Shown here: piece after piece, positions 7,455-61,686 of the stretch
How positions within the stretch are numbered: the first letter of the stretch is position 1
Layout of the letters: each line of letters begins with the position of its first letter
Assembly (NCBI GenBank): GCA_030272155.1
Contig: CP126202.1
Span: forward strand, 4,857,501 to 4,921,500
Source of the DNA: Tetradesmus obliquus
Lineage: Eukaryota; Chlorophyta; Chlorophyceae; Sphaeropleales; Scenedesmaceae
Reading direction: 5' to 3'
DNA: 64,000 nt
Translations under genes and position numbers: made by a program
The notes under the pieces: generated by a model
The model's database searches: none
What the model was told of the DNA's origin: nothing
Seen by the model: only the letters and a program-made list of their open reading frames with translations

Positions 7455-10400
7455 TCAAGCGGCCTTTGCTGCAGGCTTCCTCTGGCTGTAGAAGAAGGCC
7501 GAGGCTGCCGCCATGCACATCGCGCCAGCTACTGTGTTGCCCAGTGTCACTGGCAGCAAGTTGCTGACCAGGAACTGCTGCATGCTGACGTCCGCACCCA
7601 GAGCCATGCCGAGTGGGATGAGGAACATATTGGCGATGCTGCGGCAAGAGAGACAAGTACAGCACAGAAGCAGGACGCGAGGTGCAGCGGCAGGTGCACA
7701 CAGGTCAGTCAGCAGGCAATAGTCACACAAGGGCGTGTTGGTATTATGTGGGTCCTGGCGCAATCTGACGATTGTGTGAGCCGCACTGGCAAGCGCATGC
7801 TGGCGTCGGCGCCCAGCGCCATGCCTAACGGGACGAGTAACATGTTGGCGATGCTGAGGCAGTACATCACAGCCGGGGAACAGGAGAAGAGGTAGCGCGG
7901 CAGGTGTACACATGCCAGTAAGCAGTAAGGTGATGCTGTATGGCGTGCCAGTATCTCTACTTAGGATGAGGCTCAGCTGGCAATGTGGAGCTGCACACAG
8001 CTATGCAGCTGGCTCAACAGCACAGCAGCCGCATTCAGCAAGGCCTGGCACTATGCAGCTTTCCAGGCAGCAGGGTGACACATGACAAGCCCTAAGTGGA
8101 TTAGCAGCTCGCTGGTCTAGCGAGCAGTGGGCAGGGTCACATCCTGCAACAAAATGTGCCGCATCCTATATCGTATCGCACTGTGTTGTGCCCGGGCACA
8201 CCTGTGCTCCCTCAAAGGCGCAGAAGCTGAAGATGGGCAGCCAGACGGCCAGCAAAGAGGGACACCACAAGCAAAAAAGCTTGAGCGGAGTAGCGGCCCG
8301 CTAGCCTATTGCCTGGGGCCAGGTTCAGTTCCTGTGAACTTGCAGTGTGATGTGCTGCTTTGCCTGCAATCCTACCTGTGCTCGCCACCGAACGCGCAGA
8401 AGCTGAGGATGGGCGGCCAGATGGCCATGAGCTTGCCAGGCAGGCTGGATGATGCAGTGGCGCACCACACCGCCAGGCACACAAACCAGTTGGCCAGCAC
8501 GGCACGGCTGAAGGCCTGCGGCGGCAGCAGCGGCAGCAGCAGCAGCAGCGGTGGTGGTTGCGCTAAGATCAGCAGCAGCTGGTGTTGCAGCAGTGGCTGC
8601 TGAAGCGTAGCACCAATACTCCAACAACACAGCAACACAGCCCCATCCCACCCCACCCCACCTCCACCTACCTTGCCACAGCTGAAGCTGGCCTGGCCAG
8701 GGCCTCCTCAACTGACGAGACAGCCAATTGGCTGGTTTGCAAACAGCTAGGCAGGCTCTCTGTGCACCCCCACCCCTCTCCCCTCTTCCTCACATCCCAC
8801 CCCCACCCACCTCGCCAAAGCTGAGGCTGGTCTTGGCCAGGGCCAGAACATGACCCGCCGCCCTAACCACTTAGCCAGCAAACACAGGCACAGAGTGGTT
8901 GCAACACCAGACCTGCTGGGGTGCAACCCCTCAACTGACGAGACAGCCAGGCAGAGCCAGGCAGGCTCTTTGTACACCCCCAAATTACAAGTCGCAAGTT
9001 CTACATGTACAGCATCCCCAGCGTATGTTGGCGTGCGTTTATCAAGGAAGACGGCTTGCAGGCCGAGGCTCACGTCATGGTAATGTCGTGACAGACCCCT
9101 GCCATCTACCCCACCCACCTCGCCGAAGCTGAGGCTGGTCTTGGCCAGGGCCACCTTGATGGGTGCTGCGCTGCCTGCAGGAAGCAGCCCAGTGGCCAGC
9201 ACCACTGCCAGCACAGCAAGGCTGCCGATGAAGTTGCCTGCCCAGGACACGGCCCAGTTCCTGGCAAGGTCGCTGAGCTTAATCTTGCCCTCGCACAACG
9301 CCATGGTGGCCTTCATCGTGTTTCCTGCAAGCAGCAGAGCAAGCAGCTGTTTACTTGTTAGTGCGTGTTTTTTGGGCCTCAGCCGTAAGGGCCACAGTTC
9401 CTGGCCAGGTCCCCGAGCTTTCTCTTGCCCTCGCACAGCGCCATGGTGGCCTTCATGGTGTTTCCTGCAAGCAGCAGTACAAGCAGCGAATCTAATTAAC
9501 AGTCCGATTGTTTGGGTCTAGCTGTTTCTGCAAGGGCTACCCATCACACAGCGCCATGGTGGCCTTCATGGTGTTTCCTGCAAGCAGCAGCGGCGCAGTG
9601 CGGCATGCGGTTGTGGTCTGTTTGAGCCTCAGCAGCTGCTGTGCCAGCATTTGGTCAAAACACGGGCGCGCCACGCGGTAGAGGAGCACCTTCCAGCAAG
9701 CAGTAGTGTACAGTAGGGCCTGGGCGCATGTTTAACGCTCAACAAGCCACCAACACGAGTCGCTGTTTTGCGGGCAATCGGTGTGCGCTTTGGCAGCCAC
9801 TGCCGCCGCAACAGCTGCTGCTGATTTCAGGGCAACCATTGCTGCTGCTGCTACTGCTGCTGTGTCTGCATAGTGTGCCGCTGCACCTGTGAATAGCTCC
9901 GCGCCGTGCAGGAAGGTGACCACAAGCTCCAGAGGGAACAGGACACCGCAGATGCTACAGTGCTAGGCTCCAGCAGCAGCTGACACAACAACAGCAGCTG
10001 GTGCTGCCCGGAGCAACCGCTCCTGCAACTGCTGCTGCTGCTGCCGTTGTTGTGGCAGCTGCTGCTGCTCCAGCAGCTCACCTGTGAATGCTTCTCGCCA
10101 TGGGCCCCACAGGGAACTGGACAACGCAGATGCTGCAGGGTACAGAGGCAGCTGACACAACACCAGCAGCTACCTGCTATATGTATATCCAGCAGCTCCC
10201 CTGTGAACAGCTCCGCTCCGTGCAGGATGGTGACCATGAGCCCCACCAAGAACCGCACGATGCTGTTACTGACACCACAACAGCAGGTGGTGCTGCCTCC
10301 TCCCCAGAGCAACCACCCGCGCAACTGCTGCGCCCTCACCTGTGAACAGCTCCGCTCCATGCAGGATGGTGACCATGAGGCCCACAGGGAACAGTGCTGA

Positions 10401-13249: not shown

Positions 13250-14440
13250 GCAGCACAGCAGCGCCAGTTCACAAGCCTGCAGTGCAGGTCACATGGATGC
13301 CATGCAGTGCCGCAACCCAGCAGCCAGGGCAATGCATCGTCCCCAACATATGCAGACAACACAGCACGAGCGGCATGTGTCCCCTGATGTACCAGCCATC
13401 AAACAACAGCTAGAGTGCTGCCAGGTCACCCCAGGTGGTGCCAGAGCACAAGAAGCCAGTACACGCACTGCTGCAGGCAGCCGGGCACCCTGCAGCACAG
13501 CAGCGCCAGTTCACAAGCCTGCAGTGCAGGTCGAATGGATGCCATGCAGTGCCGCAACCCAGCAGCCAGGGCAATGCATCGTCCCCAACATATGCAGACA
13601 ACACAGCACGAGCGGCATGTGTAATCTGCCTTCCAACCATCAAACAACAGCTAGAGTGCTGCCAGGTCACCCCGGGTGGTGCCGGAGCACAAGAAGCCAG
13701 TACACGCACTGCTGCAGGCAGCCGGGCACCCTGCAGCACAGCAGCGCCAGTTCACAAGCCTGCAGTGCAGGTCGAATGGATGCCATGCAGTGCCGCAACC
13801 CAGCAGCCAGGGCAATGCATCGTCCCCAACATATGCAGACAACACAGCACGAGCGGCATGTGTAATCTGCCTTCCAACCATCAAACAACAGCTAGAGTGC
13901 TGCCAGGTCACCCCGGGTGGTGCCGGAGCACAAGAAGCCAGTACACGCACTGCTGCAGGCAGCCGGGCACCCTGCAGCACAGCAGCGCCAGTTCACAAGC
14001 CTGCAGTGCAGGTCGAATGGATGCCATGCAGTGCCGCAACCCAGCAGCCAGGGCAATGCATCGTCCCCAACATATGCAGACAACACAGCACGAGCGGCAT
14101 GTGTAATCTGCCTTCCAACCATCAAACAACAGCTAGAGTGCTGCCAGGTCACCCCGGGTGGTGCCGGAGCACAAGAAGCCAGTACACGCACTGCTGCAGG
14201 CAGCCGGGCACCCTGCAGCACAGCAGCGCCAGTTCACAAGCCTGCAGTGCAGGTCGAATGGATGCCATGCAGTGCCGCAACCCAGCAGCCAGGGCAATGC
14301 ATCGTCCCCAACATATGCAGACAACACAGCACGAGCGGCATGTGTAATCTGCCTTCCAACCATCAAACAACAGCTAGAGTGCTGCCAGGTCACCCCGGGT
14401 GGTGCCGGAGCACAAGAAGCCAGTACACGCACTGCTGCAG
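13250..14440. repeat. 241-bp satellite, about 4.9 tandem copies
   Basis: Units start at 13250, 13492, 13733, 13974 and 14215; the last is cut at about 14440. The inner copies are almost identical (for example gcagcacagcagcgccagtt at each start), while the first differs at several sites. The period is not a multiple of three, so the long frames that run through the array on both strands cannot be one repeated protein domain. It lies between NRT2 and NAR1. Confidence 0.95.
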
Positions 14441-15481: not shown

Positions 15482-16171
15482 TCAAACTCGGTCCACAGCA
15501 CCTACACGGTCCAGCACAGCAGCAGCAGCAGTGCCTGCAGCATCTGCAGCACCCTCACTCCCACTGTGCGCACCGCCAGCACCAGCATTCTGATCACCAG
15601 CAGCAGCAGCTGCTGCATTTGCTGCGCTAGCTGCTGCTGGCATTGCCAGCTCCACATCACCCCCAGCAGCAGCAGCAGCAGCACTAGCCTGTGCAGCTTC
15701 TGCATCTGTGGTAGGCTGTGCAGACATGAGCGGCACAGGCACAGCAAGCTGCAGGTGTTGTGGCAGTGCCATGAGGCCCTTTAGGCCCCTGCGGCAACTC
15801 CCCTCGCCACTGGACAGCGCCGCACTGCTGCTGCTGCTGCGGCCCGACCCATCCTGCTGCTGCTGCTGCTGCCGCTGCCGGCGCCAGGTGGAAGGGCTCA
15901 GAGGGCAGCGGATGCAGCAGCAGCCGGCGTTGGTGCGTTCGCTGCGGGCTTCGTGTGCAAAGGCGAGGGCCGGGAGGTGCAGACCGGCTGCGCGCTCTCC
16001 GCTGCTGTACTCGGAGATGTAGTAGCGCTCCTCGGAGGTGCCCGGCTGGCTGGACGTGAACATGCCACCCCACCTGCAGCAACAGCAGCAGCAGCAGCAG
16101 CAGCGGCAGCAGGAACTCGTCAGTTGCACGACATTGGCATACATGAGATGTAGTAGCGCTCCTCGGAGGAG

Positions 16172-16210
<39 letters not shown>

Positions 16211-16302
16211 ACTTATCAGTTGCATAACATTGGCAGACATAAGATGTAGTAGCGCTCCTCACTGGTGCCCGGCTGGCTGGACGTGAACATGCCACCCCAC
16301 CT

Positions 16303-16334
<32 letters not shown>

Positions 16335-17129
16335 TACTTGTCGCCCTTAATTGCGTTCAACTTGCAGTACAGTGAGCTTGTCAGCCGTGCAGCTGCATGT
16401 GCTGCTGCACCGTCCATCGCTCCCAACACGCCCTTCACTGTGCTGGCTAGAATACGCATGCAGCTTGCACTACAGCGCCTAGCTTCCTTTGCCGTCAAAT
16501 CTTGAATGCAGCTCATTGCGCGTTGTTGCACACAGGCTTTGCTGACTCACATGGGCCAGGCCAGCAGGCTGGTGAATGCGCTGACGCAGATGACAGATGA
16601 CAGATAACAAGTGGCAGATGATGAACAGCAAGGACTTTGAGCTAGTTCTGGCATGCAACTTTTTATAATCCCAACACATAAACGCCCTGCACAGCACCCG
16701 GGCTTACATGGGCCAGGCCAGCAGGCTGGTGAAGGCGGAGAGGCAGATGACGATTGGCAGATGAGCATTGCACATGCACCTGCCGCTGCCAGACACCAAA
16801 CAATCCCCAAACACCTTCCCAAACACGACCCCAAAAGCCCTGCACAGCTCTCAGCGACTCACATGGGCCAGGCCAGCAGGCTGGTAAATGCGGCAGATGA
16901 CACACGACAGATGACAAGTGGCAGATGATGAACAGCAAGGACTTTGAGCTAGTTCTGGTATGCAGCTGTCCTAATAATCCCAACATATACGACACCCTGC
17001 ACAGCAACCGGGCTCACATGGGCCAGGCCAGCAGGCTGGTGAATGCGCTCAGGCAGATGACGCTGGTGCCCATCCAGTAGAAGCCCTCGTAGGCCGAAAA
17101 GTCAAAGTAGGAGAAGAACACTGCCTGCA

Positions 17130-17160
<31 letters not shown>

Positions 17161-17373
17161 ATGGTTATGTGCAGCCCAGTTCAGCATGAGAGCATCCAAT
17201 AGAGCCCTCAAGAGCAGAGTCTTCAAAAGTAAGCAGACGGCTAGCACTGGAACAGCTACAGCCAGCCATTGAGCCAGCCAGCCATTGAGCCAGCCAGCCA
17301 TCGAGCCAGCCAGCCATTGATCTAGCCAGCCAGCCGCGCTCGCCTGCCTGACTGCTGTGCCCAGGCTGCTGCC

Positions 17374-17423
<50 letters not shown>

Positions 17424-17862
17424 GCTTTTGCTAAACAAACTGCCAGCCATCCCCACCTGCGTCACTGCCGAGCCCAGGCTGCCGCCTGCTGCCACAATGC
17501 CCGTGACTGTGCCTGTGGAGCGCTTGCTCACAAACGGCACGATGCCAAACACGCATAATCCAAGGTGCAGGCAGCCAGCCAGCTAGCCAGCCAGCCTGCC
17601 GCCCTCGTCTGCTGAGCCTAGGCTGTTGCCTCTGCTGCTGCTGCTGCTGCTGCTACGCTTTGGCTAAACAAACTGCAGCCAGCCAGTGCCCACCTGCATC
17701 ACTGCCGAGCCCAGGCTGCCGCCTGCTGCCACGATGCCCGTGACTGTCCCCGTGGAGCGCTTGCTCACAAACGGCACAATGCCAAACACGGCCCCGCAGG
17801 CCATCTGGCAGCAGAAGGAGAACACAATCAGGATGCCCACCTGCAGAGTATTGTGTACAGAC

Positions 17863-17913
<51 letters not shown>

Positions 17914-20900
17914 GTAGCAGCGGTAGCAGCGTGCTCACTACACCACACTGCCATGCATGCAGTTCCGCAGACCATGTGCTGTGCTTGCATTGCATACGAC
18001 AAGTCTTTTGCATGCACACAGCCTGATAAGGTTGCCTCGCCCTGTTGCCTTTCAAGCCCATAGCGGCCATTGTTATTTTTGTTGTTATTTTTGCTTTGCC
18101 GCGTGCTCACCGTGGCCAGCAGGTAATCGTGCACCACGCCCACCAGCAAGCAGAACACGCCCCATCCCCTTAGCAAGCTGACAACAGCTGCTGTTTGAAT
18201 TCAGGCACCTTCACGCGCTCACTGTGGCCAGCAGGTAGTCGTGCACCACACCCACCAGCAGGCAGAACACCTCTTTACTATGCGTGCAGTTCCGCAGATC
18301 ACGTGCTGCGCTTGCATTGCATACGACAAGCCTTCTGCATGCACACAGCATGAACATGTTCCCACGCCCTGTTGCCTTTCGAGCTGACAGCAGCCATTTC
18401 TTGTTATTAATGTTATTTTTGTCACACCCACCGTGGCCAGCAGGTAGTCGTGCACCACGCCCACCAGCAGGCAGAACATGCCCTCCAGCAGCAGCAGCAC
18501 CTGCAGCACCCACAGCCGGCCCCGCATGCCGCGCAGGCCGGCAGCCAGGTCGCTGGCAGCGCCCCCGAGGAAGCGGCTGACCACGTTCATCAGGCCCAGC
18601 CCGCCGCCTGCAGTGCAGTTGCGTTACATCTTGTTTGTTATTATGTTATTATGTGACAACCAGATGCTGACAACAGTCATCAGGCCCAGCCCGCCGCCTG
18701 CAGTGCAGTTGCGTTACATATTGTATGTTATTATGTTAAATGTAACAACCAGATGCTGACCACATTCACCAGGTCCAGCCCTCGCACATGCAGGCAGCAA
18801 AACACAGCACGCAGACACAGCATGGCACAATGGGTACAGCACAGCATCATAGCACAGGCCCAGGCCTCACCTAGCAGCCCCGAGGCTGTTAGAGGCAGCC
18901 CAAAGTGGTTGAACAGGCACAGTGCATTCACGTTGTGCGTGGTCAGCTCCACGCCAAAGAACAGCGCATAGAACCCTAAATCCATGAACCAACCACATGA
19001 GCAAAACTGCAACGTGCTACCGGCGATGCAGCGTTGCATGCTTGTACACATCCAAGCTGCGACACTGCTACCCACAGCCGCAGCCAAGCAGGCGCACTCA
19101 CCTAGCAGCCCCGAGGCTGTTAGAGACAGCCCAAAGTGGTTGAACAGGTAGAGTGCAATCACGTTGTGCGTGGTCAGCTCCACGCCAAAGCACAGCGCGT
19201 AGAACACTAAAACCATGAACCAACCACATGGGCAAAACTGCAGCGAGAATGTGATGCCGGCGATGCAATGTTGCATGCTCTGTGCACATCAAGCTGCGAC
19301 ACTGCTACCCACAGCCGCAGCCAAGCAGGCCTGCCCAGGGGCACTCACCCAGCAGCCCTGAAGCCGTCAGCAACAGCCTGAAGTGGTTGAACAGGTACAG
19401 CCCAGCCCAGCCCAGCCCAGCCCAGCCCAGCACACCGCACCACACCACGGCACAGCACGGATCAGCACAGCTCAGCAGTCACGCGAAACACCGATCAAAC
19501 ATTATAAACATATCCCACGCCTCACCTAGCAGGCCTGAAGCTGTGAGCGACAGCCCAAAGTGGTTGAACAGGTACAGCGCGATCACGTTGTGCGGTGGTG
19601 CAACACCGCTTTACGCCAAAGCACAGCGCGTAGAACACTAAAACCATGAACCAACCACAAGAGCAAAACTGCAATGAGAATGTGCTGCCGCCGATGCAGC
19701 GTCGCATGATTGTACACATCCAAGCTGCGACACTGCTCCCCACAGCCGCAGCCAAGCAGGTGCGCTCACCTAGCAGCCCTGAAGCCGTCATCGACAGCCC
19801 AAAGTGGTTGAACAGGTACAGCCCAGCCCAGCCCAGCACGGCACAGCACACCACACCACACCACAGCACACCACACCACAGCACGGCACAGCACGGATCA
19901 GCACAGCTCAGCAGTCACGTGCAAAACACCGATCAAACATCACAAACATATCCCAGCGCTCACCTAGCAGGCCTGAAGCCGTGAGCGACAGCCCAAAGTG
20001 GTTGAACAAATACAGCGCGATCACGTTGTGGGTGGTCAGCTCAACTCCAAAGCACAGCGCGTACGCCAGCGCCAGCACGTACAGCCGGTAGTTGGTCAGC
20101 ACGGAGCGCCACGCGGCGCAGGGGTTGGTGCGGCGGAAGTGCCCACGGTCGCGCCTGCGGCAAGGTTGCGGCAGGCGGGCGTCAGAGGCAGAGGTCAGAC
20201 AGAGAGACTGTGGTCCTTGGCCTACTTCAGTGCAGCAGGTTGCAGAGATGGTGATGGTTTGGCTTGATATTTTTAGCTATGGCAGAACAGCACTGACGGC
20301 AGCTAGCCGCTGCTGACCCATGCACAACATGTGCTGCCCGATGCACAACTGCCGCGCTGCTGCTCACCCCAGCTGTGGGGAGGAGCACAACGGCAAGTCG
20401 ACGGCAGCAGTAGCTTGCATTTCATGGAAGCACAGTGCGCTGACAGTGGCGTGGGTGTATTGCGTGCACCCTGCTGCTCACCCAATATGTGGAAACGAGC
20501 CCAGCGGCGAATCATCGGCAGCGATCAGCACCAGCACGCCCAGCAGCAGCTGCAGCACGCCAGGCACAAACAGCGCGATGCGCCACGCAATGTCGGGCGC
20601 GACAAGCTTTGCGAAGGCCTCGTATAGCAGCGGCGTGAGGAGCAGCGCTGCGCCCGCGCCGGTGTTGCCCCAGCCTGTGGCAGCAGCAGCGCGACAACAG
20701 GGCCAAGAACCAATGAGCGAGGGCAATTACAAAGACTGGGACGCAGCTGCAACACAGAATTGGCGCACCTGCGGACAGGGCATGCGAGTTCCCCACCAGC
20801 TGTACAGCGAAACTTTAAGAACTCGGAACATATCAGCTGCGCATTCTCCGGCATGCATTGTGTTGTGTACAAAGTGCTCGCCGCACCTGCCGACAGCGAG

Positions 20901-21660
20901 TTGGCGCGCCCCACCAGCTTCACGTTGAACATACCTTGCTGCTGTCTTCCCCCGCAACGCCCAACACAATGACCTAACGCAGTTCTACCGTCATCGCACC
21001 TGCTGACAGCGCGTTGGCGCGCCCCACCAGCTTCACATTGAACATGCAGGTGGTCCAGGTCTGGTTGACCACAAACATGGACAGCCCAGGCCCACCATGC
21101 AGCGACAGTTGTGTGCTGCGCAAGCTGTCAGCAATGAAGCTACCGACCCCAAACCTTTGCCAGCCGGCAGCCAAGCCAGCAGACTGCTGCACAAACCACA
21201 AACACAGGAACTCGGCACTTGCCGCACCTGCGGACAGCGCGTTGGCGCGCCCCACCAGCTTCACATTGAACATGCAGGTGGTCCAGGTCTGGTTGACCAC
21301 AAACATGGACAGCCCCAGGCCCACCATGCAGCGACAGTTGTGTGCTGCGCAAGCTGTCAGCAATGAAGCTACCGACCCCAAACTTTTGCCAGCCGGCAGC
21401 CAAGCCAGCAGACTGCTGCACAAACCACAAACACAGGAACTCAGCACTTGCCGCACCTGCGGACAGCGCGTTGGCGCGCCCCACGAGCTTGACATTGAAC
21501 ATGCAGGTGGTCCATGTCTGGTTGACCACAAACATGGACAGCCCCAGGCCCACCATGCAGCGCATGGCCACGTAGCCGGCAGCGCCGTGCACCAGCGCCA
21601 TGGCAAACGCAAAAGGGGCGGTGCCCAGCAGCATGGCTGCGGCGCCGTACCTGTAAATGC

Positions 21661-21710
<50 letters not shown>

Positions 21711-22903
21711 GGGTGCACAGGTTTGCAGAGGTGCGCGGGGCATGGTCCGTAGGGAAGAGTATATGCAACGGGCGCGGTGCCCAGCAGCATGGCTGCGGCG
21801 CCATACCTGAGAATGCACAGCAGCAGCAGCAGCAGCAGCAGAGGGTGCACAGGTTTGCAGAGGATGTGCAACGAGCGCGGTGCCCAGCAGCATCGCTGCG
21901 GCGCCGTACCTGTACATGCACAGCAGCAGCAACAGCAGCAGCAGCAGCACAACGTGCACAGGCAGGAAGCAGGGGCATGCTGGTGTAGTGCTGAGAAGTA
22001 GTGTCTTATGGGGCTGCTGTGCTGGTGCGTGGCTGCTGTAAGGCCGTCAGCTGCACAGTTGCATGCAGCATGGCCTGCTGCGAGCGCAACGTGCCCCGCA
22101 CTGGAGTGCCCTCCGCCCCACGAAGCATCCTTGACAACCAGCCACAACAGCCTGGTTTGCACCCCACGACACACCAAGACACCCTTTTGACAATCAGCCG
22201 CAACACCCTGGCCGTTGCGCCATACATTGACTTGCTGCGCTGGCATGCTGTCACTGTGGCGGCTCACCTGGGCCAAACATGTCTGTGAGCGTGCCCATGA
22301 CAAGCCTGGATCCAATAGCGTGAACAATCAACCGACTAAAACTATGAACTTGAGCTACGCACGAGTCAGGGTTGTTTGTCCAGTGGCAGCAGTGCCGTGC
22401 TGCTGGGCTCTAAGAGCTATGCACAGTCCATGCCGCAGCGCTGCGCTGCCATGTTGTCCCCAACTCCGCCCATTCCTCCAAGCCCCAACCCTCCGTCACC
22501 AAACACGCCCAGACAGGCTTACATTCCAGCTATTACACACTGCATCGTCTCACCTGGGCCCAAACATGTCTGTGAACGTGCCCATCACCAGCCTAGATCC
22601 AATGGCGCCACACACTGATGCAATGCCGCCATTTCCAATGTCTGTGGCTGTCAGGTCCAGGCTGTCGCGTAGCACCGGCAGCACCGCCGCTGGTGCGAAT
22701 GTCGTGGCAAAGGTGATAAAGAATGCGGCCCAGTTCAGGTGGAATGCGCGCATGTGGGGCCGTGCGAACGAGCACAGGTCGAGCCTGCATGCCTTGCATT
22801 CTGCGTCCACTGGCAGCGCAAATTGCTGCGTGGGTGCGCCCGGCGGCATGGATCCCTGCTGCACTGCTGCTGCAGCAGCAGCTGGCGGGCCGGAGCTGAA
22901 CAT
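15482..22903 (-). CDS. NRT2: High-affinity nitrate transporter, NNP/NRT2 family
   Basis: Eight exons in minus-strand order: 22903-22554, 21650-21457, 20674-20482, 20154-19964, 18607-18432, 17840-17694, 17124-17018, 16073-15482. Phases close and give 649 residues, about 100 more than Chlamydomonas NRT2. Exon 1 carries MRAFHLNWAAFF and LTATDIGNGGIASV (residues 51-97). AGWGNTGAGAALLLTPLLYE (about 181) matches the first NNP signature, and STGTVTGIVAAGGSLGSAV (about 397-415) the second. FGVELTTHNVIALYLFNHFG and GMRGRLWVL are family-typical loops and helices. It is a plasma-membrane MFS proton/nitrate symporter that in algae usually needs NAR2. After the conserved tail (SQPGTSEERYYISEY) comes an unusual Gln/Ser/Ala-rich extension of about 140 residues. 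It is followed on the same strand by NAR1. The start at 22903 (MFSSGPP) is the first in-frame ATG before the conserved region. Confidence 0.95.
16141..16300 (-). repeat. Two intronic copies of NRT2 exon 8 acceptor and 5' end
   Basis: True exon 8 starts at 16073. A copy starting at 16300 keeps the CTGCAG acceptor and reads WGGMFTSSQPGTSEERYYI before a stop. A second, shorter copy at about 16141-16172 keeps only the SEERYYIS part. Confidence 0.88.
16551..16893 (-). repeat. Three intronic copies of NRT2 exon 7 donor and 3' end
   Basis: The true end at 17018 reads AFTSLLAWP-AT then GTGAGC. Copies end at 16863, 16708 and 16551 with the same TSLLAWP codons and GTGAGT, GTAAGC and GTGAGT donors. Spacing is 155-157 bp. 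Confidence 0.9.
17457..17557 (-). repeat. Intronic copy of NRT2 exon 6 donor and 3' end
   Basis: The copy reads FGIVPFVSKRSTGTVTGIVA and GGSLGSAVTQ followed by GTGGGG, against the true exon end at 17694. It is almost intact, including the transporter signature. Two shorter, decayed copies of the last 35 bases lie at about 17345-17375 and 17597-17630. Confidence 0.88.
18111..18275 (-). repeat. Two intronic copies of NRT2 exon 5 donor and 3' end
   Basis: The true end at 18432 reads FCLLVGVVHDYLLAT. Copies end at 18223 and 18111 with the same codons and GTGAGC donors; spacing is 209 and 112 bp. Confidence 0.9.
18675..18785 (-). repeat. Intronic copies of NRT2 exon 5 acceptor and 5' end
   Basis: True exon 5 starts at 18607 (GGLGLMNVVS). 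A copy starting at 18697 keeps the CTGCAG acceptor and reads GGLGLMTVVS; a more decayed one near 18757-18785 reads GLDLVNVVS. Confidence 0.8.
18871..19819 (-). repeat. Five intronic copies of NRT2 exon 4 donor and 3' end
   Basis: The true exon 4 end is at 19964 (LYLFNHFGLSLTASGLL). Direct copies end at 19770, 19526, 19349, 19102 and 18871. All keep HFGLSLTASGLL with small changes and all but the 19349 copy keep CTAG then GTGAG. The longer ones (19102, 18871, 19526) also keep FGVELTTHNV, with a frameshift in the 19526 copy. Non-exonic sequence between copies is repeated too (for example near 19020, 19260 and 19690), so the unit is exon end plus about 100 bp of intron. Confidence 0.93.
20887..21345 (-). 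repeat. Three intronic copies of NRT2 exon 2 donor and 3' end
   Basis: The true end is at 21457. Copies end at 21228, 21000 and 20887. The first two are near-perfect 229- and 228-bp tandem units that encode VGLGLSMFVVNQTWTTCMFN and KLVGRANALSA then GTGCGG or a near match; the third keeps about 45 bp. Confidence 0.93.
21662..21709. repeat. (CAG)16 microsatellite
   Basis: Sixteen uninterrupted CAG units lie 12 bp from the NRT2 exon 2 acceptor, so the transcript carries (CUG)16 where a polypyrimidine tract would be expected. Similar tracts precede several other acceptors in the window. Confidence 0.95.
21755..21909 (-). repeat. Two intronic copies of NRT2 exon 2 acceptor and 5' end
   Basis: True exon 2 starts at 21650 (YGAAAMLLGTAPF). 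Copies start at 21806 and 21909 with the same YGAAAMLLGTA codons, each behind its own (CTG)n tract and CAG acceptor. Confidence 0.9.
22268..22318 (-). repeat. Intronic copy of NRT2 exon 1 donor and 3' end
   Basis: The copy reads GSRLVMGTLTDMFGP then a GTGAGC donor, against GSRLVMGTFTDMFGP at the true end 22554. Same orientation, 286 bp downstream. Confidence 0.88.
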
Positions 22904-25788
22904 CCAGCCGAGGGCAGCAGCTGCTGCCTTGTGTGCGGGGCGCGCTGCTGCTGCTAGCACGAGCGGCGGCTGTGCGGGGGCCTCATCGTGTGTGGGGAAG
23001 ACTGCTTGCCTGTCCAGGCATACGCTGCAGAGGCAGCATAGACAGCAGAACTAGGGTTGGGCGCTGGCAGTGGCAGCAGCAGCAGCGGTGCCTAGGAGTG
23101 CTGCTGCGTAGCGAAGGGAGGTGCTCTGATTGATTATGTCAGACATGCCTGCACATCAGGGACCTGGAGATGCAGCCACTAGCTTGAGGTGTGCTGCCAC
23201 ATCGGTTTGAATGGCACGAAGAACATCAAATCAACTATTCTTCAAGATATTTGGGACTTGCTGGTACAACACAGCAGGTGTGCCTCCATGTGCTGCCCAT
23301 GTGACCCACCTGCTGCTGCTTGTTGGCCGGTGCCAGGCATCAGCTGCAGCTCATACAGCTCTGCGATCGCTGGGTTGCTGAGCACAACAACCCGCCTCTA
23401 GCATCGCTCAAAAACGACCAGCGACGAAAGGTGCAGCAGCTGCACTTCAACTCCAGATGCCCAGGCAGTTGTGGATGCTTTAGGTCTGTCGAAACGCTGA
23501 TGGTCAGCAAATTTTATACGCTTGTTCAGCGAATGTGCTGGCTGGCTTGCTGACGAGATCTGTTGTGTTGTCTGTGATCGTCGCAGCGGCAAAGGCAACG
23601 TCAGACTCAACATCTGTAGAAGCATGGCAGGTTGATGAATGTCACAGAACACAGACGCGGCCTCCGGTACCGATGACCTGAGCGGTCCCACGGGGTAACA
23701 TGTTACGATACAGTGCGATGCCCCACCTGGCGGGCACAGGCCACTTCCCTGCAGGTCGGATTGCTTGATCGTCAGTTTGAAATCATAGGTTTTCTGGTAT
23801 GTGCTGTGACCGAAGGTAAAGATGGGCTGAACGCTGAACGGTCGTCCTGCACCCGCGCAGGCTCTTCACTGGTGCCGGCACTACACGCAGTGGGTGCTGT
23901 GTGGCCATATCCTGCCAACAGCTGTCACAGAAATGGGCCAAATATCAGCTAGATTGCATCATAGGGTCTGGTGTGACAAAGGTCTGAATGGGCCAGCCTC
24001 AGCCAGCCAACACCAGCTGGGCTGTCATGCCGCACTGCGACATCTTTTCCAATGGCGGGGGAGCGCTGCTTGCTAAGCACATGTCCTGGTGACCAGTAAT
24101 TGCAGCAGTTAAATGCGGTTGATGAAGGAAGTGGAAGGCGCTGCATGAGGATCCTAGTCGTCAGGCCAAATTTCTGCTCAGCAGTGCTGCTGCAAGTGGC
24201 ATGCCTGCCTTATTTGCCTGCCTCAGGCTGCCGTGGGTATTGCTCCAACTGCAGTGGCACTGCTGAACCTTCAGGAGCCGTGCGTTTGATACGTTTAAAT
24301 GCAATTACGTTTGCTTGTTTGCGTGCTCTTGTCAGTTCTCTTGTCAAGGGTGTAAGCATAAGAATGCTACTCGTGTCACGCAGTCCCACTGCTCCAGCAG
24401 CTCTGGCTGCAGGTCACCTGCAATGGTTGCCTTGTCACAGTGTGCCTGGATCCAAGACCATGGCCTGGAACTGTGCACATTTCCTCATGCACATTTGCAG
24501 AACACATTGTTCCGGATCATCAACACCGATATCCTGTTGTGGCTCCTACGGTCTTAGGTGCCACTGGCCTGGCCTGGTGCTCAGGATCCTGCGACGGACC
24601 TAGCAGGACCCAGTAGGACTCACATGTAACCAGCCTGCCTGTCATGATCAAGTAGAATGACGAATTGTAGACAAAGCCACGATACCGAAGTACGCTGGTC
24701 ATGCACAGCTGCGCACCTTCAAGCAATGCTGAGCAAGAAGACCCCCGCCAAAGTCTCCTGCCAGTGCAAGTGATGCCAGCAAATCAACGCCGCCACCCAC
24801 GTCACGCACACCTTTCACCTCATGTGCGGCTTCAATGTTAATACCGTTGAAAGGTAAACAGCATCGGTCAACTGCGGCATCATGCCGCAGTTCTGGACCC
24901 TCCAGAGTTCTGTAAGAGGAGTAAATGCTTTCCACCCGCAGCTGCCTGCCCCATCTGCCCGATGAAGTAAGAAACAGGAACATTCTGCGTCGGTGGAACA
25001 GAAGGCCAAGGCCTCTCAGGGTCTCTTCAATTTCAGTTACCAGCAGCGTCATCACTGTTCCAAGCTGGCACTCCAATGACGTTCAAGCCAGACAAGAGAC
25101 AGAACAGCACGGAAGGTTGTGTGATCAGTATATCAACTACAGGTTCTATCTGAACAATATTTCGTGTCTTTACGGCGGACATGCGTCAGAGCGTGCGTGA
25201 TGATTGAAGGGACCATTTTACCAGGCTATGAGTATCCTGCACTATCCGCAGCAAAAAGTTTTCTTTGTCTCGAAACAAGTATATGGTGCCGTTGTTGTCA
25301 GCAATACTACGACAGACCCATGTGACCCCTTGCGCGCAACATAACATTACGGACATTTTGGGGGGGGGCGATTTGCCGCCCCGAGAACTGCGTAACTTGG
25401 CTTGCTGATCGTGACTCTGCGTTTGTTAGTGCAAGCAACACACAGAGCAGCCTAGAGTCAGTCTGTTTTTCACGCCTTCGCTGCTGTGGTGTTCTACATT
25501 GGCCCAGGCGCGGAATTTGTATTGCTTGTCTCTTTACAGTCGTTATTTTGACTGGTTTTCATTGGCCAAGAGTTTTCAGCAGCAAGCTGGAGGCAGCAGT
25601 GCAGCTGTGACTGGAGCACTAGCACCAGGCCGCTGGGGGCTATACCGGCGTGCATACCCAGGCGTGTTTGTTCATTAGTATCAGGGCGTCAGCTCAAGGT
25701 GCGCTAGGCGTACAGCGGAGGGATTCCGTGACTGAGTCATGCCTTTGGCTGGGCTGTTGTGGCGGAGCACGCACCGCTGCCTACAGTT
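22904..25788. other. Divergent intergenic region between NRT2 and the DUF506 gene
   Basis: The two genes are transcribed away from each other, so both promoters must lie here. I see no coding family. The stretch contains the inverted relative of the MITE-like element (24656-24757). A run of nine G lies near 25362-25370. No NIT2-type motif is claimed. Confidence 0.35.
24656..24757 (-). repeat. Inverted dispersed copy of the MITE-like end
   Basis: About 102 bp matching the reverse complement of 390-491 at about 90 percent by eye, including the 22-bp inverted-end sequence. Only one end is recognisable here, so this copy is partial. Confidence 0.8.
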
Positions 25789-44614: not shown

Positions 44615-47330
44615 TCACTGCCTGCCGCGCTTGCTGCCCGCTGCCACCGCCCCCTGCTGCTGCTCCTTCTCCGCGCGCGCCGCTTCGCACCCTTTGCAAA
44701 CAAAGCCATGTGGCTCCTGCTCCTCATCCCGTATGCCGTTGCAGCGCGTGTGCATCCAGTAGCCGCAGCCGTCACACACGATCATGCGCTCGCCATCGTC
44801 ATCGCGGCAGCCGCAGCTGCAGGACACCGCCCAGTCCTCCACGCCACCCGCATGGCGGAACCTGCAAGCGTGATAAGACAGCAAGCAGCAGCATGTGCAG
44901 GTGCAGAAGCGTTAGGACACATGGTAACGGCAGCCGCAGCTGCATGACACTGCCCAGTCCTCAACGCCGCCCACGTGACGGAACCTGCAGCACGGCAACA
45001 CAGCAGCAGCATGAAAGGAGAGCACGCGCCTGCAAGGGTGATGCATATGCCGCTGTCATGTACTCGTGTGCTGTTGCACCTGCACGTGGCTGTGATGGCA
45101 GCGCAGCAGTTGCCAAGCAACCACTGACAGTTGCACTGCCGTCATGGATGTTACCTTGCCTCAGCCCTGGTGGTTGTATGTGGCCATCATCCGACACATT
45201 CCACAAGCGGATTCAAGCAGAACAGCCTGCGGCGCTTCACTTCAGAGGCATACGCACTGCCGATGCATGTGGTCTAGTGCAGCTGCTTGCTGTTACCCCA
45301 AGCTGAAGCTCAGAAGGTTCTGTGGGGACCACATCACGTCAACTGCCAACCATGCCTGGCTGCCCTGGCTGACACCACCCTCAACCCCTCACCGTGGCTC
45401 GGGGTCCAGCCCGCTGCCCACAGCATCTACTTGAAGACACCCATGCACACTGCCAATGCACCCCAGTCCAACAATTATACACCCTGCTGCTGCTGCTGCT
45501 GCTGCATCCCCCTCTCACCGTGGCTCGGGGTCCAGCCCGCTGCCCACAGCAGTCAGCTCGCAGCCAGCCGGCACCTTCTCCCCCAGCAGCAGCAGCCCAG
45601 CATCAGGCACGCCTGCTGCTGCCACGTCATCAGCACCCTGCTGCTGCTGCTGCTCTGCGGGCAGTAACACCCCCTCAGGCAGCCCAAGCAGCTGCTCGCA
45701 GCGCCAGTGATCCGCCAGCCTGTACACTGCTGAGAATGCCTCAGTGACGAGGCGCTTCACGTCTGCCAGGCTGGCGCGGTCAGGCACGCAGATGAGCTCA
45801 GCTGGCGTGATGTGGCTGCTGCGGCTGCGGCGTGCCAGGGCGCCGCCGGGCAGGCGTACAGTGCACACGTCCAGCAGGTGGCTGGCGGTGAGGTCCAGCT
45901 GCAAAGGGGGGGGGGGGGGGGGGGAGGGAGGGCAGAGCAACAAAATGGGGGTGTTGACAAAAGGGTGCAGAGGCGTGCTAAGGAGCCGCCGGGCAGGCGC
46001 ACGGTGCAGACATCTAGCAGGTGGCTGGCGGTGAGGTCCAGCTGCAAAGCGGTGAGGGGGAGGGGCATCAAGAACGAAGTTCAGAGGTGTGTTAAGTTGC
46101 ATGTTGGGCAGGCGCATGGTGCAGACATCCAGCAGGTGGCTGGCGGTGAGGTCGAGCTGCAAACAGGGGGTGCAGCATTCAACAAGAGTGCAAGGGTTTA
46201 GGGTCTTATGTTATGGGCAGGCGCACGGTGCACACATCCAGCAGGTGGCTGGCAGTGAGGTCCAGCTGCAAAGGGGGGAGGGGGGGGCATTAAGAACAAA
46301 GTTCAGAGGTGTGTTATGTTGCATAGAGGGTAGGCACACGGTGCAGACATCTAGCAGGTGGGCGGCGGTGAGATCCAGCTGCAGGGGGTGGGGGTGGGGG
46401 TGGGGGTGGGGGTGGGGTTGTTGACAAGAGTGCAAGGGGTGAGGGTGGAGATCAGAGTGCTGATGCGTGTACGTGTTGCATGGTGGCACAGGGCACCAGG
46501 CACAGCAGCAGGTGGCTGGCGGTGACGTCCAGCTGCAACAGGGGCACAGCATGGCAAGGCAAGGTAGGGCGCAGGCCATAGTTGGTGATGTACGTTACAG
46601 GGTCAAGTTAGATGCAGTTATATGGTCAAGTGGCACGGCCGGCATGGCAAGGCAGGCAGCAGGCACAAGGAGGCCGCGCTACTTGTTTGTAGTGACAGCA
46701 GCAGCAGCAGCAGCAACGGCGCATCGTGGCTCGCACGCGCCTCACCTTGACCATGAGCCGCACTGGATGCGGCAAAGGACCAGCCGCCACAACAGCAGCA
46801 GCAGCAGGGTCAGCAGCAGCAGCAGCAGCAGCAGCAGGGTCGGCTGCTGCAGCTGCCAGAGCCTCATCCACTGCTGCTGCCACATCACCGGCAGGCTGCG
46901 CGCCTGCACCATCCTGCTGCTGCTGCTGCTGCTGCGGTGCATCCACCTGCATTGCCTCAGCCCCGCTGCCGCCTGCTTCACCCGCTGCTGCTGCAGCAGC
47001 GGCAGCCCCATCCTGACCAGCTGCACTGCTCTCCTGCTGCTGCTGCTCAGGTTGCTCCGGCACCACCTGCTCCTCATCAGCAGCAGCATCAGCATCAGCC
47101 ATTGCCACGTCAGACGCTGCACGCTGTGCCGGCACAGCCGCTGCTGCTGCTGCTGCATCAACAGCCTGCTGTTGTGCATCAGCAGCCACTGCTGCTGAGG
47201 CTGGCAGCTGGCCAGTGCCAGGCAGAGCCAGCGGCTGCTGCTGCTGCTGCTGCTGCGCCGCTCCCTGTGCCCCTGGCTGTTGCAGAGCTACTACAGTGAT
47301 GCCAGCAGCTGCAACTGCAGCTAGCAGCTC

Positions 47331-55539: not shown

Positions 55540-55611
55540 CCAGCCTCAACAGCCTCGACAGGCTCGGAAGCAGCAGCACGCTGCTCAGCCTCTGCTGGTT
55601 CCGGAGGCTCG

Positions 55612-55644
<33 letters not shown>

Positions 55645-58273: not shown

Positions 58274-61200
58274 CCCAGCCCACTGACATGCCCCCTCTGA
58301 CGCACCTCTGCCTGTTTTGCCGCTGCCGCGGCCAGAGCCTCCTGCAGCCAGCAGCTGCGCATACAGTGGCGGCTCACGCCAGCCGGGCGGCGGCGGGTAC
58401 AGTGCGTCATACGCCTCAGGCCGGGCGCTGCAGGCCAGCAGCCGCCGCAGCAGCGGGCCCAGCGCTGTCACCGGCTCGCCTGCATGGCAAAAAAGTGGAT
58501 GGCAAGGTGATGATTAAATTGGCACTGTGAGGCTGGCGTGCAAGCATCCGGTAGCATGTCGGTGTTGTAGTACGCAAGAGATGAAAGAAACGTTGCAGCA
58601 GCAGCTTGGTGATCATGTCGTGCAATGCAGCGGGCCCAGCGCTGTCACTGGCTCGCCTGCATAACACGAAAGTGGATGGCAAGGCAGGTTACAGCTTGAC
58701 TTCTTATTCTGAGGATAGGGGCACAACATGCCTTCCAGCGCTGTGACTGGCTCGCCTGCATGACACAGTGTTGACAGAGTGCTGGATGGCGAGGCAGGTG
58801 GCAGCTGACTTAAAACATTGAGGATTGGTGGCGTGCAAGCATACAGCAGCATATGGATGTATGGAGGCAAGGGCTGTACACAGCGCTGTGACTGGCTCGC
58901 CTGCATGGCGGTGTAACAGAAGGCACGGGTAGCAGGCGCAGGCCTCATAAGTAGCGTGCAAAGGAGCACGCAAGCATACAGCAGCGGGTGGGTGTTACAG
59001 TAACAAAGGGCTGAAGGCAGCATTGCAGCAGCAGCTTGGGCTCGCTACGCAGCCCACCATCCTGATTGTTACACCAATCTACCCCCTTCCCACCTACCTG
59101 CTGCGCCGAAGTGCTGCAGCAGCGCCGGCATGGGCTCGCCCCGCAGCCCACACTACTGGCAGTTCATCAGAATACCCCATCTGCCGACATTGCCCGCCCT
59201 CACGGCTGACAGGTGACCAAATCTTCCCTCTCTCTCTTACACGCACCTGCTGCGCCGTAATGCTGCAGCAGCGCCGGCATGGGCTCGCCCCGCAGCAGCG
59301 CGGCAAAGTCGGCAGCAATGCCCGCCAGCGGCGCGCCCACCACAGCCGCCACTGCTGCCGCGTACTGCTGCGGGCTGATGTTGTAGGAGCCGCGCCCAAA
59401 GCCGTACCCAAACTTGCCGTACCTGCGCGGCGCAGTGATAACAATATGATGTGACATCTGCTGAGCTCTTTAATGCAGTGACCATGTGCGGATATAGGGG
59501 TACCATGGTGCTGGTAAACCGCCCGTGTTGGCTGTTGTCAGATGCAACCAGACATGCAAAGCTGCCATGAGTGCGGCTGCAAGTTACTGCTGATGGGTCC
59601 AGCAGTGTGTGCAACACAGTCGCAGCCTGCGCCGCTCACCAGGTAGTGCCAAAGGCTGCTGTGTGCAGCACGCGCAGCAGCATGGTCAAACTGCCAGCAA
59701 GGCAACTACAGCTTACTGCTGCTAGTTGGTCCAGCAGCGCCTGCAATCTACCCTACTCACCAGGTGGTGCCAAAGGCCGCCGTGTGCAGCACGCGCAGCA
59801 GCATGCCACTCTTGTTGGACACGTCCTCCACTGACACAGCCCGTGCCCGCAGCAGCACGCACAGCCTGTCCCACACAGTGAGCAGCTGCTTGCCTGTGGG
59901 ACAGCAAGCAGCAGCAGCAGCAGCAGCAGCACGGATGAGGGTGGGCATCGCCAGGAGTGCCGGCTGCAGCATGCTACCAAATTGTTCTTAACATGGGGAT
60001 CTGCTGCATCAAGCCTTTGACTGCTTGAACCACCAGCTGTTAGCTGCTGCTGTTGCTGCTGCTGTAAGCACACTGGGTGCTGCCACAGTGCTGTTGCAGC
60101 ATCATGCCTAGCAACAAGTGCCCTGCCTGCCTGCCTCTGCTGCCTGCCATCCTCCTGACACCTGCTGGGCAGCCAGCCGACCCTGCTGCAGCCCAGCTGC
60201 TGCTGCCGTCCTGCAAGCGCGGCGGCCCCAGCACCAAATGCACTGCCTGCCTGCGTCTGCTGTCAGCCTGCCATCCTCCTGGCACCTGCACTGTGCAGCG
60301 AACCATGCTCCTGTCCAGCTGTTGCTGCTGCCCTGCAAGTACACCCAACCACCTAACAGCCATTCCGCAGCCTGCAGGCCCTGCTCGCTGCTGCTGCTGC
60401 TGCTGCTGCAGTGCGCACAATGCATGCTGTTGCTTGCACATCCACCGGCAAACCAACCCGCCCACCTATCAGCCGCCGCGAGCCGCCCTGGCTGCCGTTC
60501 ATGCGCAGCAAGTGCCCGAAGCCGTTTGCGTGCAGCACGCCGTGCAGCAGGTGCTCCTGGCTCTCAAACACGCTGTGCGCTGCGTTATACGGCCCGTGCT
60601 CCTCATCTGCATCGTAGCCCTGCTGGCCGGGTGCGGGTGGGGCCCACTTGTGGCTCAGCGGTAGTTTGCCTGTGGCCTTGCCTTCTACTACTGCTGTCAG
60701 CTGGCGGGGGTCCTCCAGGGTTGATTCGGCTGGTATGATGAAGTGGTAACGCGCCACAGACACGGGGTGATGCTGCCAGCCTGGGTGAATGTTTGCAGCA
60801 GCATATGACAACGGCAGGGCAGCAGGGGTGATGCTGTTGCAGGAGCATATGCAGTGAAAGGGCGCTAGCAGAGTTGACTCGGCTGGTATGATGAAGTGGT
60901 AGCACGCCACAGACACCGGGTGGTGCTGCCAGCCTAGGCGCAAGAGAATGAGGCCCAGCAGGTGTGTGGTGTGCATACAACAGGGTATCACAAGCTACTA
61001 AGTGATGTTGCCAAACACGTAGTGTTACCTAAAAGATGGTGTCTTGCTAGCTGAATGCCGTATTGTCTGACACCCGCTGCAGGTGGGGCGCGGGCACTAC
61101 GTGACGTGGCAATGAGGAGGACAAAATCCGTGCGCTGCTAGCTAGGGCTTGTCCTTGCAAGCTGCAACGAGGTGCAGGAGGCCCTGCTGCTGCTGCTGTT

Positions 61201-61686
61201 GCTGCTTCTGTGCCACTATCCTTGCTAGCCCTTGTGTTGAGGTTGCTATTGCTGCGAATGCTGCTGACTGTTGAGCAGTTGCGTCGGGTACAGTGTTGTT
61301 GAGCCAACACCCGGCTGGCCTGCCTCAGCCACTGCAAGCGTCCTGCAAGGCCTTTAAAGCAAGTGCTGCTTTATTTAGGCCATCAGGGCCTTGCTCTGCC
61401 CCCCTAACTGCCCCTGCTGCTGCTCACCCATGCATCTGCACTGGTCACAGACAGTGCCATCCTTCTCATCCAGCTTCTCCTCATACACGTGCAGTAAGGT
61501 CACGCCTTGCGATGATTCTAGCTCGACAATGTAGGCATTGGCCCTACGGAGGCTGCCGAGCGGTAGTTTCTTGCCATACTTTGCTAGAAAGTCCTTGACG
61601 TTGCACCTGAAGGCGTCCGCATACAGCGGTGCCGGGTGCAGCCAGGGGACCTCTGGTTGCTGTTGATGTAAGACAAGCGATCCCAT
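44615..61686 (-). CDS. Giant MS1/MMD1-type PHD-finger protein
   Basis: Eight exons in minus-strand order: 61686-61428, 60780-60466, 59893-59761, 59422-59247, 58479-58306, 57913-46746, 45898-45519, 44861-44615. Every phase closes, giving about 4,283 residues. The order of blocks matches the land-plant MALE STERILITY1/MMD1 family: FRCNVKDFLAK and VCDQCRCMGW (1-88), HPVSVARYHFIIP, LLHGVLHANGFGHLLRMNG (to 191), WDRLCVLLRARAVSVEDVS, YGKFGYGFGRGSYNIS (236-250), then, after a 3,700-residue low-complexity insert, ELICVPDRASLADVKRLVTE and the PHD finger VSCSCGCRDDDGERMIVCDG...CGYWMHTRCNGI...FVCKGC with complete Cys4-His-Cys3 ligands. Plant relatives read histone H3 marks in meiotic or tapetal cells; function here is inferred only as a nuclear chromatin reader. 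The first ATG is uncertain; an upstream exon is possible. Confidence 0.85.
44925..44984 (-). repeat. Intronic copy of PHD exon 8 acceptor and 5' end
   Basis: Reads FRHVGGVEDWAVSCSCG behind CTGCAG, against FRHAGGVEDWAVSCSCG at the true start 44861; 123 bp upstream in the transcript. Confidence 0.88.
45393..45425 (-). repeat. Intronic copy of PHD exon 7 donor and 3' end
   Basis: Reads GSGLDPEP-CG then GTGAGG, the same as the true end at 45519 (GTGAGA). 126 bp apart. Confidence 0.85.
45906..45924. repeat. Poly-G run of 19
   Basis: Nineteen G on the plus strand, that is C19 in the PHD transcript just before the exon 7 acceptor; the nearest copies of the same junction have shorter C runs, so it is probably a slippage-expanded polypyrimidine tract. 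Confidence 0.9.
45970..46532 (-). repeat. Five intronic copies of PHD exon 7 acceptor and 5' end
   Basis: The true exon 7 starts at 45898 (LDLTASHLLDVCTVRLPGG). Copies with a GCAG acceptor start at 46041, 46156, 46265, 46378 and 46532, spacing 109-154 bp. They keep LDLTASHLLDVCTVRLP with small changes and then diverge. All are in the same orientation and the same phase at the junction. Confidence 0.93.
46384..46419. repeat. (GGGGGT)n tract
   Basis: Six G-runs separated by single T on the plus strand next to one of the copied exon 7 acceptors. It has strong G-quadruplex potential in DNA; the transcript carries the C-rich strand. Confidence 0.9.
51830..52170 (-). repeat. Degenerate repeat inside the giant PHD exon
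   Basis: A protein unit of about 50 residues occurs at least twice (PDAAEHEVHKGKQGKQRQPK and PDAAEHEVHKAKQGKQRHAK), each followed by a Gln run and preceded by GEATxSxSxALPAxKQQQQ; a third partial unit is present. Basic, Lys/Gln-rich. Confidence 0.85.
53480..54000 (-). other. Cys-rich and Arg-rich islands in the giant PHD exon
   Basis: GCSKCRFRPTGCNQC near 53540-53590 is the clearest non-repetitive island in the exon. Its C-x2-C-x6-C-x2-C pattern could bind zinc; I believe similar modules occur in plant and algal chromatin proteins, but this needs checking. Two near-identical islands RRSSASGGGSSAARATRQRA (about 53330-53400 and 53885-53955) flank it. Confidence 0.6.
57919..58012 (-). repeat. 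In-frame copy of PHD exon 6 acceptor and 5' end
   Basis: True exon 6 is taken to start at 57913 (GKRGRSHSASPLPGGLTLP). A copy starts at 58012, exactly 99 bp upstream, with the same CTGCAG acceptor, and stays open in the same frame. Using it would add 33 residues, so two in-phase alternative acceptors exist. Confidence 0.88.
58630..58900 (-). repeat. Three intronic copies of PHD exon 5 acceptor and 5' end
   Basis: True exon 5 starts at 58479 (GEPVTALGPLLRR). Copies of the ATGCAG or equivalent acceptor plus the GEPVTALG codons start at 58656, 58755 and 58900. Only 20-27 exonic bases are kept. Confidence 0.85.
59098..59150 (-). repeat. Intronic copy of PHD exon 4 donor and 3' end
   Basis: Reads RGEPMPALLQHFGAA then GTAGGT, against RGEPMPALLQHYGAA then GTGCGT at the true end 59247. 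Confidence 0.87.
59640..59690 (-). repeat. Intronic copy of PHD exon 3 donor and 3' end
   Basis: Reads MLLRVLHTAAFGTT-TG then GTGAGC, against the same codons and GTGAGT at the true end 59761; 121 bp apart. Confidence 0.88.
60870..60933 (-). repeat. Intronic copy of PHD exon 2 acceptor and 5' end
   Basis: Starts at 60933 with a CCTAG acceptor and reads GWQHHPVSVACYHFIIPAES, against GWQHHPVSVARYHFIIPAES at the true start 60780. The frame stays open well past the copy, but the conserved continuation (LLHGVLHANG) follows only the 60780 copy. Confidence 0.88.

Follow-up and report, generated by a model that had tools for sequence, protein, structure and literature searches.

Why should an intron carry repeated copies of the exon end that adjoins it, each with a splice site of its own, and can such copies account for its length? 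The question is raised by a stretch of 64,000 nucleotides in the genome of the coccoid green alga Tetradesmus obliquus (hereafter the window; C12:4857501-4921500 of a 104.7-Mb, 17-contig genome), and it bears on a weakly explained problem, the growth of introns without transposons. Introns average 462 bp in T. obliquus, whereas the means for three related Sphaeropleales are 230, 302, and 284 bp and that for Chlamydomonas is 270 bp; no mechanism is named in the passages on intron length of the study that reports these values (PMC5966456).

Copies of exon ends in the window

Self-comparison of the window after masking of short-period repeats yielded 106 direct but only 5 inverted local repeat pairs (members less than 3 kb apart). 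Exon boundaries were set by a purpose-written spliced protein-to-DNA aligner, guided by the proteins P0001-P0003 for NRT2 and by the gene's own exon translations for NAR1, and the gene models are based on homology and GT-AG ends. Matches to exon ends with a score of at least 40 were accepted as copies in these two genes. This search gave 31 matches, 30 of which reach the junction, with copies in all seven introns of NRT2 and in three of the four introns of NAR1; CTG-repeat matches, which turned up at a lower threshold in unmasked sequence, were gone after masking.

The NRT2 gene (15482..23024, minus strand, by spliced alignment to P0001-P0003) has exons at 23024 (start uncertain)-22554, 21650-21457, 20674-20482, 20154-19964, 18607-18432, 17840-17694, 17124-17018, and 16073-about 15482, the 3′ end of the last exon not being fixed. 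Its joined exon translations have proteins of Tetradesmus obliquus and Scenedesmus as their first matches. On the same strand, intron 1 (21651..22553, 903 nt) contains a donor copy at 22320-22252 and acceptor copies at 21920-21877 and 21817-21765. Intron 2 (20675..21456, 782 nt) contains donor copies at 21333-21188, 21104-20995, 20932-20877, and 20801-20751, the first two of which, with the exon end, make up a tandem repeat of period 229 bp, an example of the clean tandem units found in some arrays. A single decayed donor copy (20408-20357, 77%) is present in intron 3 (20155..20481, 327 nt), and the longest array is found in intron 4 (18608..19963, 1356 nt), with donor copies at 19822-19762, 19632-19486, 19401-19341, 19201-19094, and 18970-18859 and acceptor copies at 18797-18755 and 18717-18666. 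Donor copies also occur at 18269-18220 and 18162-18108 in intron 5 (17841..18431, 591 nt) and at 17553-17423 in intron 6 (17125..17693, 569 nt). Finally, intron 7 (16074..17017, 944 nt) contains donor copies at 16901-16838, 16752-16669, and 16594-16546, an acceptor copy at 16331-16242, and a partial match at 16172-16145 that stops short of the junction.

P0001, an NRT2 protein annotated in another T. obliquus record, carries the segment HGNEVFCLLVGVVHDYLLATVG after the normal exon end. The first copy in intron 5 reads HSKEVFC in the same frame as this segment, and the two segments are alike, which suggests that the segment in P0001 is an exonised copy and, therefore, that copies can be annotated as exons; arrays of this kind may thus be a trap for gene prediction. 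The intron-5 copy behind the segment is probably older than the split of the two strains. The idea that the copies are a source of new exons, put forward in the first-pass annotation of the window, stays open with this one exonised-looking case. Near-identical arrays are prone to misassembly, but it is scarcely credible that the copies are an assembly artefact, since most of them differ from their exon by several per cent, many are separated by unrelated spacers, and P0001 belongs to a separate annotation of T. obliquus.

The NAR1 gene (7458..11035, minus strand) has exons at 11035-10903, 10441-10340, 9324-9119, 8515-8376, and 7638-7458, which are matched by PF01226 at 4865003-4867945 of C12; eight copies are distributed over introns 2-4, and intron 1 has none. 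In the putative gene first named bZIP, the repeat pairs were read by eye within 39985..41830 (minus strand). Copies of the exon end at about 41745-41830 lie on the donor side at about 41530-41590, 41284-41343, 40950-41000, and 40728-40761, three with a recognisable donor and one cut short, and an acceptor copy of the exon start near 40070-40150 is located near 40230-40308. The 3′ part of the PHD gene (44678..46560, minus strand; PF00628 match at 44615-44911) has exons at 45898-45684 and 44861-44678 with one acceptor copy between them, and five further acceptor copies were recognised by eye upstream of 45898, in the region 46054-46498, each with its own pyrimidine-rich stretch ahead of TGCAG. 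In the 5′ part (58331..61617, minus strand), five copies were modelled: one donor copy after the exon at 59865-59761, and one donor and three acceptor copies in the intron at 59246-58480. All six copies in the PHD model, which is rough and includes spurious exons of 2-4 nt, reach the junction. A 3814-codon open frame rich in Ala and Gln runs (46626-58070, minus strand) is probably a single exon of the PHD gene; inside it, an in-frame 99-bp tandem duplication at 57862-58014 (minus strand) encodes the peptide GGKRGRSHSASPLPGGLT twice.

Direct, diverged copies of exon ends with their splice sites are thus present in the adjoining introns of all four genes in which they had been reported, and the earlier count of about 45 agrees with the present one of about 47 (31 + 6 + 5 + 5). 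The DUF506 gene, described as free of copies, is indeed so: PF04720 falls in the open reading frame at 27181-28752, and no local direct repeat is found from about 22.6 to 30.8 kb.

The window has other repeats besides. An intergenic tandem array between NAR1 and NRT2 (13247-14441; a 241-bp unit repeated 4.9 times, about 98% alike) indicates that tandem duplication extends beyond genes. Several direct repeats spaced about 90-400 bp occur at 35372-35868, in a stretch that belongs to none of the genes assigned here, and a perfect (TG)70 dinucleotide run occupies 29560-29699. A sequence of about 129 bp recurs in inverted orientation 24 kb away (376-504 and 24643-24771; 88% alike) and is possibly a dispersed element.

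Occurrence in other genes and relation to intron length

Two samples from elsewhere in the genome were analysed together with the window. The kinase sample comprised 40 loci (14 contigs, 198 kb) in which the domain is split, selected among 149 protein-kinase domain matches, and the nitrate-family sample consisted of relatives of NRT2 (three loci) and of NAR1 (five regions). After filtering, these chosen families and the window provided 149 introns from 49 genes, namely 100 kinase introns, 38 nitrate-family introns, and 11 window introns (seven of NRT2 and four of NAR1). The first-pass annotation had proposed aligning introns to the exons of the same gene; here, the exon ends at 298 junctions were compared, on both strands, with their own intron and with the introns of other genes. 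Own introns gave 74 matches on the plus strand and none on the minus strand, so that chance is excluded as the source of the matches. Other genes' introns gave 27 plus-strand matches and one minus-strand match, and between-gene examples link kinase paralogues. The junction is included in 70 of the 74 own-intron matches, as expected from the earlier description of copies that extend from the junction on both the donor and the acceptor side.

The copies are not confined to the four genes of the window. Local repeats in the 40 kinase loci are all direct, 94 in number and distributed over 19 loci, and copy-bearing introns amount to 12/100 in the kinases (8/39 genes) and 8/38 in the nitrate family (4/8 genes), compared with 10/11 in the window; no copy was detected in the other 88 kinase and 30 nitrate-family introns. 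The window genes are therefore exceptionally rich in copies, and the sample from which the habit was first described overstates the average. Long copy-bearing introns were seen in L062, L063, and the NAR_C4 region, five in two NRT2 relatives and four in two NAR1 relatives, with one short NAR1-like intron in each of the latter. The NRT2 relative L061 has no copies, and copy density differs from gene to gene. The model of L062, a second NRT2 gene, was guided by its annotated protein P0020 (OEZ86_001410) and matches it exactly over residues 32-516; this protein is obtained by splicing past all of the copies, which in the models lie within one existing intron.

The presence of copies is closely related to intron length. 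No copies occur in introns of 80-199 nt (0/13) or 200-249 nt (0/37), and the proportion rises through 2/35 (250-299 nt), 4/27 (300-399 nt), and 13/24 (400-599 nt) to 11/13 (600 nt or more); pooled, copies are found in 0/50 introns below 250 nt and in 24/37 introns of at least 400 nt. The median length is 572 nt with copies and 260 nt without, and when the duplicated span (measured on either side from the real junction as far as the most distant copy) is subtracted, the copy-bearing introns also have a median of 260 nt (p = 0.37 against copy-free introns). Duplicated spans make up one fifth of the sampled intron sequence (10,588 of 51,928 bases; 2,601 of 30,954 in the kinases alone). The extra length of the sampled copy-bearing long introns is explained by a visible duplication process, and growth by local duplication is well supported, because the relation to length and the remainder of 260 nt are what it predicts.

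Splice signals, decay, and history of the copies

The anatomy of the copies was described for the 70 matches that reach the junction (43 donor and 27 acceptor copies), leaving out the four that stop short of it. The exonic part is 14-110 nt long (median 46), and the copies are spaced 90-314 nt apart (median 129) with no preference for reading frame (26/27/17 by spacing modulo 3). On its exonic side every copy ends inside the exon; none spans a whole exon, and a duplicated whole exon with both splice sites was not encountered among the 70. The copies were also considered as mini-exons, but no regular acceptor was seen by eye ahead of the donor copies. GT is retained in 39/43 donor copies and AG in 25/27 acceptor copies, which is about what the identity of the exonic parts (about 0.9) predicts. 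At individual donor positions, the nucleotide of the real site recurs in 41/43 (+1), 40/43 (+2), 31/43 (+4), 40/43 (+5), and 25/43 (+6) of the copies.

Exon and copy differ at 5.6, 4.2, and 17.6% of first, second, and third codon positions (pN/pS 0.19). This third-position bias hints at coding constraint on the copies, but the direction of the amino-acid changes goes against it: among 44 amino-acid differences between exon and copy in NRT2 genes with protein relatives, 36 are assigned to the copy and 5 to the exon, with 3 left unclear; 18 of the differences affect residues that are identical across all relatives consulted. L062, polarised by hand against P0009, has 11 copy-derived differences and one exon-derived difference. 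Furthermore, copies could be aligned with one another without a break in six cases, NRT2 intron 4 supplying three, and there the exonic blocks (identity 0.887) and the spacers (0.901) are about equally alike. On these two grounds, the decay of the copies resembles that of non-coding DNA and is about as free as in the sequence around them; the extra synonymous differences must have arisen on the exon side or derive from a diverged source. In the six copy-copy alignments of this type, third positions of the blocks differ by 24.6% and other positions by about 5%, a pattern that would fit an exonic block overwritten by a diverged functional exon.

These results bear on the proposal that the copies form a splicing-control layer, in which they would be kept as competing sites that regulate splicing. 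Their retained GT and AG dinucleotides, and the good splice signals of copies that lack sequence homology to the real site, are what such decoys would show; nevertheless, judged from these sequence comparisons, a regulatory role is improbable, because the retention scarcely departs from the general identity of the exonic parts, most amino-acid changes lie in the copy, the blocks decay like the spacers, and the spacing disregards frame. The exact reproduction of P0020 by splicing past the copies likewise tells against the proposal.

The arrays do not have a single, simple history. Homologous spacer in the same intron (z of at least 5) accompanies 43 of the 70 copies (42 by the unrounded cut-off), two are marginal, and 25 have the exonic block without spacer homology (block-only copies). 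Simple duplication of whole units was tried as a complete answer and given up, in view of these 25 copies and of neighbouring spacers that mostly look unrelated. The latter appearance is partly due to higher-order (A-B-A-B) arrays: L036 intron 9, read by eye, has the order exon-A-copy-B-copy-A′-copy-B′-copy-C. By codon position, the block-only copies mismatch at 6.0, 4.9, and 16.2%, compared with 4.9, 3.4, and 14.3% in the 29 copies with a spacer matching that at the real site, and they are not older than the others. Long maintenance of block-only copies was likewise set aside, their blocks being neither more diverged nor more constrained than the rest. Their splice signals are unrelated in sequence to the real sites, with GTNNG in 13/16 donors (the background frequency of G at +5 of intronic GT is 0.28), YAG in 8/9 acceptors, and a mean pyrimidine content of 0.74 ahead of the acceptors (background 0.49; all real acceptors 0.68). 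Since these signals are good but unrelated, both junctions of a block-only pair were probably functional at some time.

Block-only copies thus suggest filler sequence, conversion, or exchange with a diverged homologue. In the last case, an exon end together with its own flank would be added when diverged alleles or paralogues, their introns no longer alignable, engage in repair or unequal recombination with each other; alternatively, exon-copy conversion would rewrite the block. The independent, working-looking splice signals, the excess of synonymous differences, and the copy-copy alignments with third-position divergence in the blocks beside spacers that are 0.90 alike all point in this direction. 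So does a pair of tandem paralogues, NAR_C14a and NAR_C14b, whose exons align at 18-34% third-position difference and whose introns do not align except for a few edge bases (one 96-bp match lies upstream of the first modelled exon); as far as alignment can tell, the pair illustrates a fast turnover of introns in this genome. On the other hand, the third-position bias is the same with or without a homologous spacer, which exchange itself does not predict, and we regard exchange as a rather unlikely account of the copies as a whole. It is tempting to speculate, with still less assurance, that fast intron turnover leaves alleles sharing only their exons, such that break repair between diverged homologues would use exon ends as the sole homology and leave junction-anchored half-exons with their own splice signals.

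A block-only copy also resembles an exon end duplicated around foreign sequence, as would result if introners, intron-like mobile elements, were inserted beside existing introns with long target-site duplications. When the introns were compared with 324 kb of genome, however, no family was apparent among 40 of the 186 off-locus matches, these 40 being 21-66 nt long and mostly simple-repeat-like or pieces of paralogous exons, and on this limited comparison insertion of introners seems very improbable.

Proposed passive intron growth and comparison with known systems

The structure of the copies, their precision at the junction, their strand bias, their occurrence in other genes and contigs, their relation to intron length, and their decay are all matters of direct observation. 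Together, we consider that they are best explained, with a probability of roughly 0.72, by recurrent local duplication across exon-intron boundaries, which would act as passive intron growth as long as splicing goes on using the outermost sites. A local DNA duplication, perhaps generated by break repair or template switching, would repeatedly copy a stretch across the boundary (a median of 46 nt of exon, the splice site, and adjoining intron) and leave the copy in the intron in the same orientation. Such an event would be harmless, in that the outermost donor and acceptor, on intact exons, would still be used, and a copy with one splice site and a partial exon would not be recognisable alone as an exon. 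The copies would then decay as non-coding DNA, units would be re-duplicated into arrays, and a base intron of about 260 nt would reach 400-1400 nt through repetition. P0020 supports the view that copies can be skipped, and exon definition may be what hides them from splicing. Some exonic blocks may have come from a diverged homologue, by haplotype exchange or exon-copy conversion. Several observations sit poorly with this explanation: most kinase (88/100) and nitrate-family (30/38) introns carry no detected copy; plain tandem duplication does not explain the 25 of 70 copies without homologous spacer, whose blocks are equally well preserved; the third-position bias is more than free decay of the copies alone would predict; and intron-only duplications are rarer than expected from random placement.

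The last point bears on a possible variant to which we give somewhat less than an even chance, namely that tandem duplication strikes at random, with no preference for junctions, and that junction-spanning events are merely the harmless ones that survive. Tandem arrays do exist outside genes (13247-14441) and in frame within a coding region (57862-58014), and junction copies are more readily recognised because exons are conserved. When units of the observed sizes are placed at random in copy-free introns, however, about 40% of the duplications are expected to be intron-only, whereas the count found was 2 to 5, set beside 38 junction sides (p = 4e-7 to 4e-5, or 9e-4 to 0.02 if detection of intron-only events is halved). 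The intron-only tally was drawn from direct repeats in 3 of the 119 introns without copies, although one of these proved to be a missed junction copy, its repeat passing the acceptor, and from three spacer-only alignments elsewhere. Survival alone also leaves the 25 copies without spacer homology unexplained. Of the original proposal of intron growth by local tandem duplication anchored at splice junctions, the growth is upheld by the length relation, the 260-nt remainder, and the 8/39 kinase genes, and the evidence for anchoring beyond survival bias is moderate (p = 4e-7 to 0.02).

If, as in the more speculative reading of repair between diverged homologues, exon ends are the substrate of growth, a long intron in this lineage would amount to a pile of former splice junctions, and the spliceosome would have to recognise exons as units, skipping up to five nearly perfect decoy sites. 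The arrays, in which a real site stands beside near-identical copies about 100-250 nt away, provide a natural test of splice-site choice.

In tandem exon duplication, which includes mutually exclusive exons, exon sequence is duplicated within a gene; the copies in T. obliquus differ in being partial exons with one splice site each. In the titles and abstracts consulted, we found no description of serial exon-end copies as an intron habit, a weak form of evidence, since subscription journals lay mostly outside the scope of the search; by term look-up, PMC12571836 has no word beginning with “intron” or “tandem,” and PMC7590803 has no term beginning with “intron,” “tandem,” or “alternative splic.” Introners, as described in PMC9860276, are likewise insertions that alter intron content, reported mainly in fast-evolving lineages such as green algae, but they form dispersed families of similar introns, whereas the copies in T. 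obliquus derive from the local exon end and showed no dispersed family among the 40 off-locus matches inspected. Direct repeats near splice sites have been reported at exon-intron borders in many taxa; as presented there, they have a mean of 11.4 bp, reach 30 bp, and are read as insertion footprints rather than serial copies of exon ends (PMC11782384). Another comparable case is the lengthening of new introns by staggered double-strand breaks in Daphnia (Li et al., 2014; PMC4202315). As in T. obliquus, introns there contain internal direct repeats, a part of which recur in the adjacent exon, and a passive trend toward longer introns has been proposed. The repeats in Daphnia, however, are 4-17 nt long (4-12 nt when shared with the exon) and are found in 61.1% of new introns and 16.2% of established ones, whereas those in T. 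obliquus comprise 14-110 nt of exon and a splice site, are serial and tied to length, and occur in introns that need not be new. Finally, the potato RdRp gene provides a tandem duplication across an intron-exon boundary that carries splice signals, as here; in potato the event gave rise to a new intron and inserted a segment of exon (PMC4974935), whereas in T. obliquus it is the existing intron that becomes longer, and splicing would take out the copy along with it.
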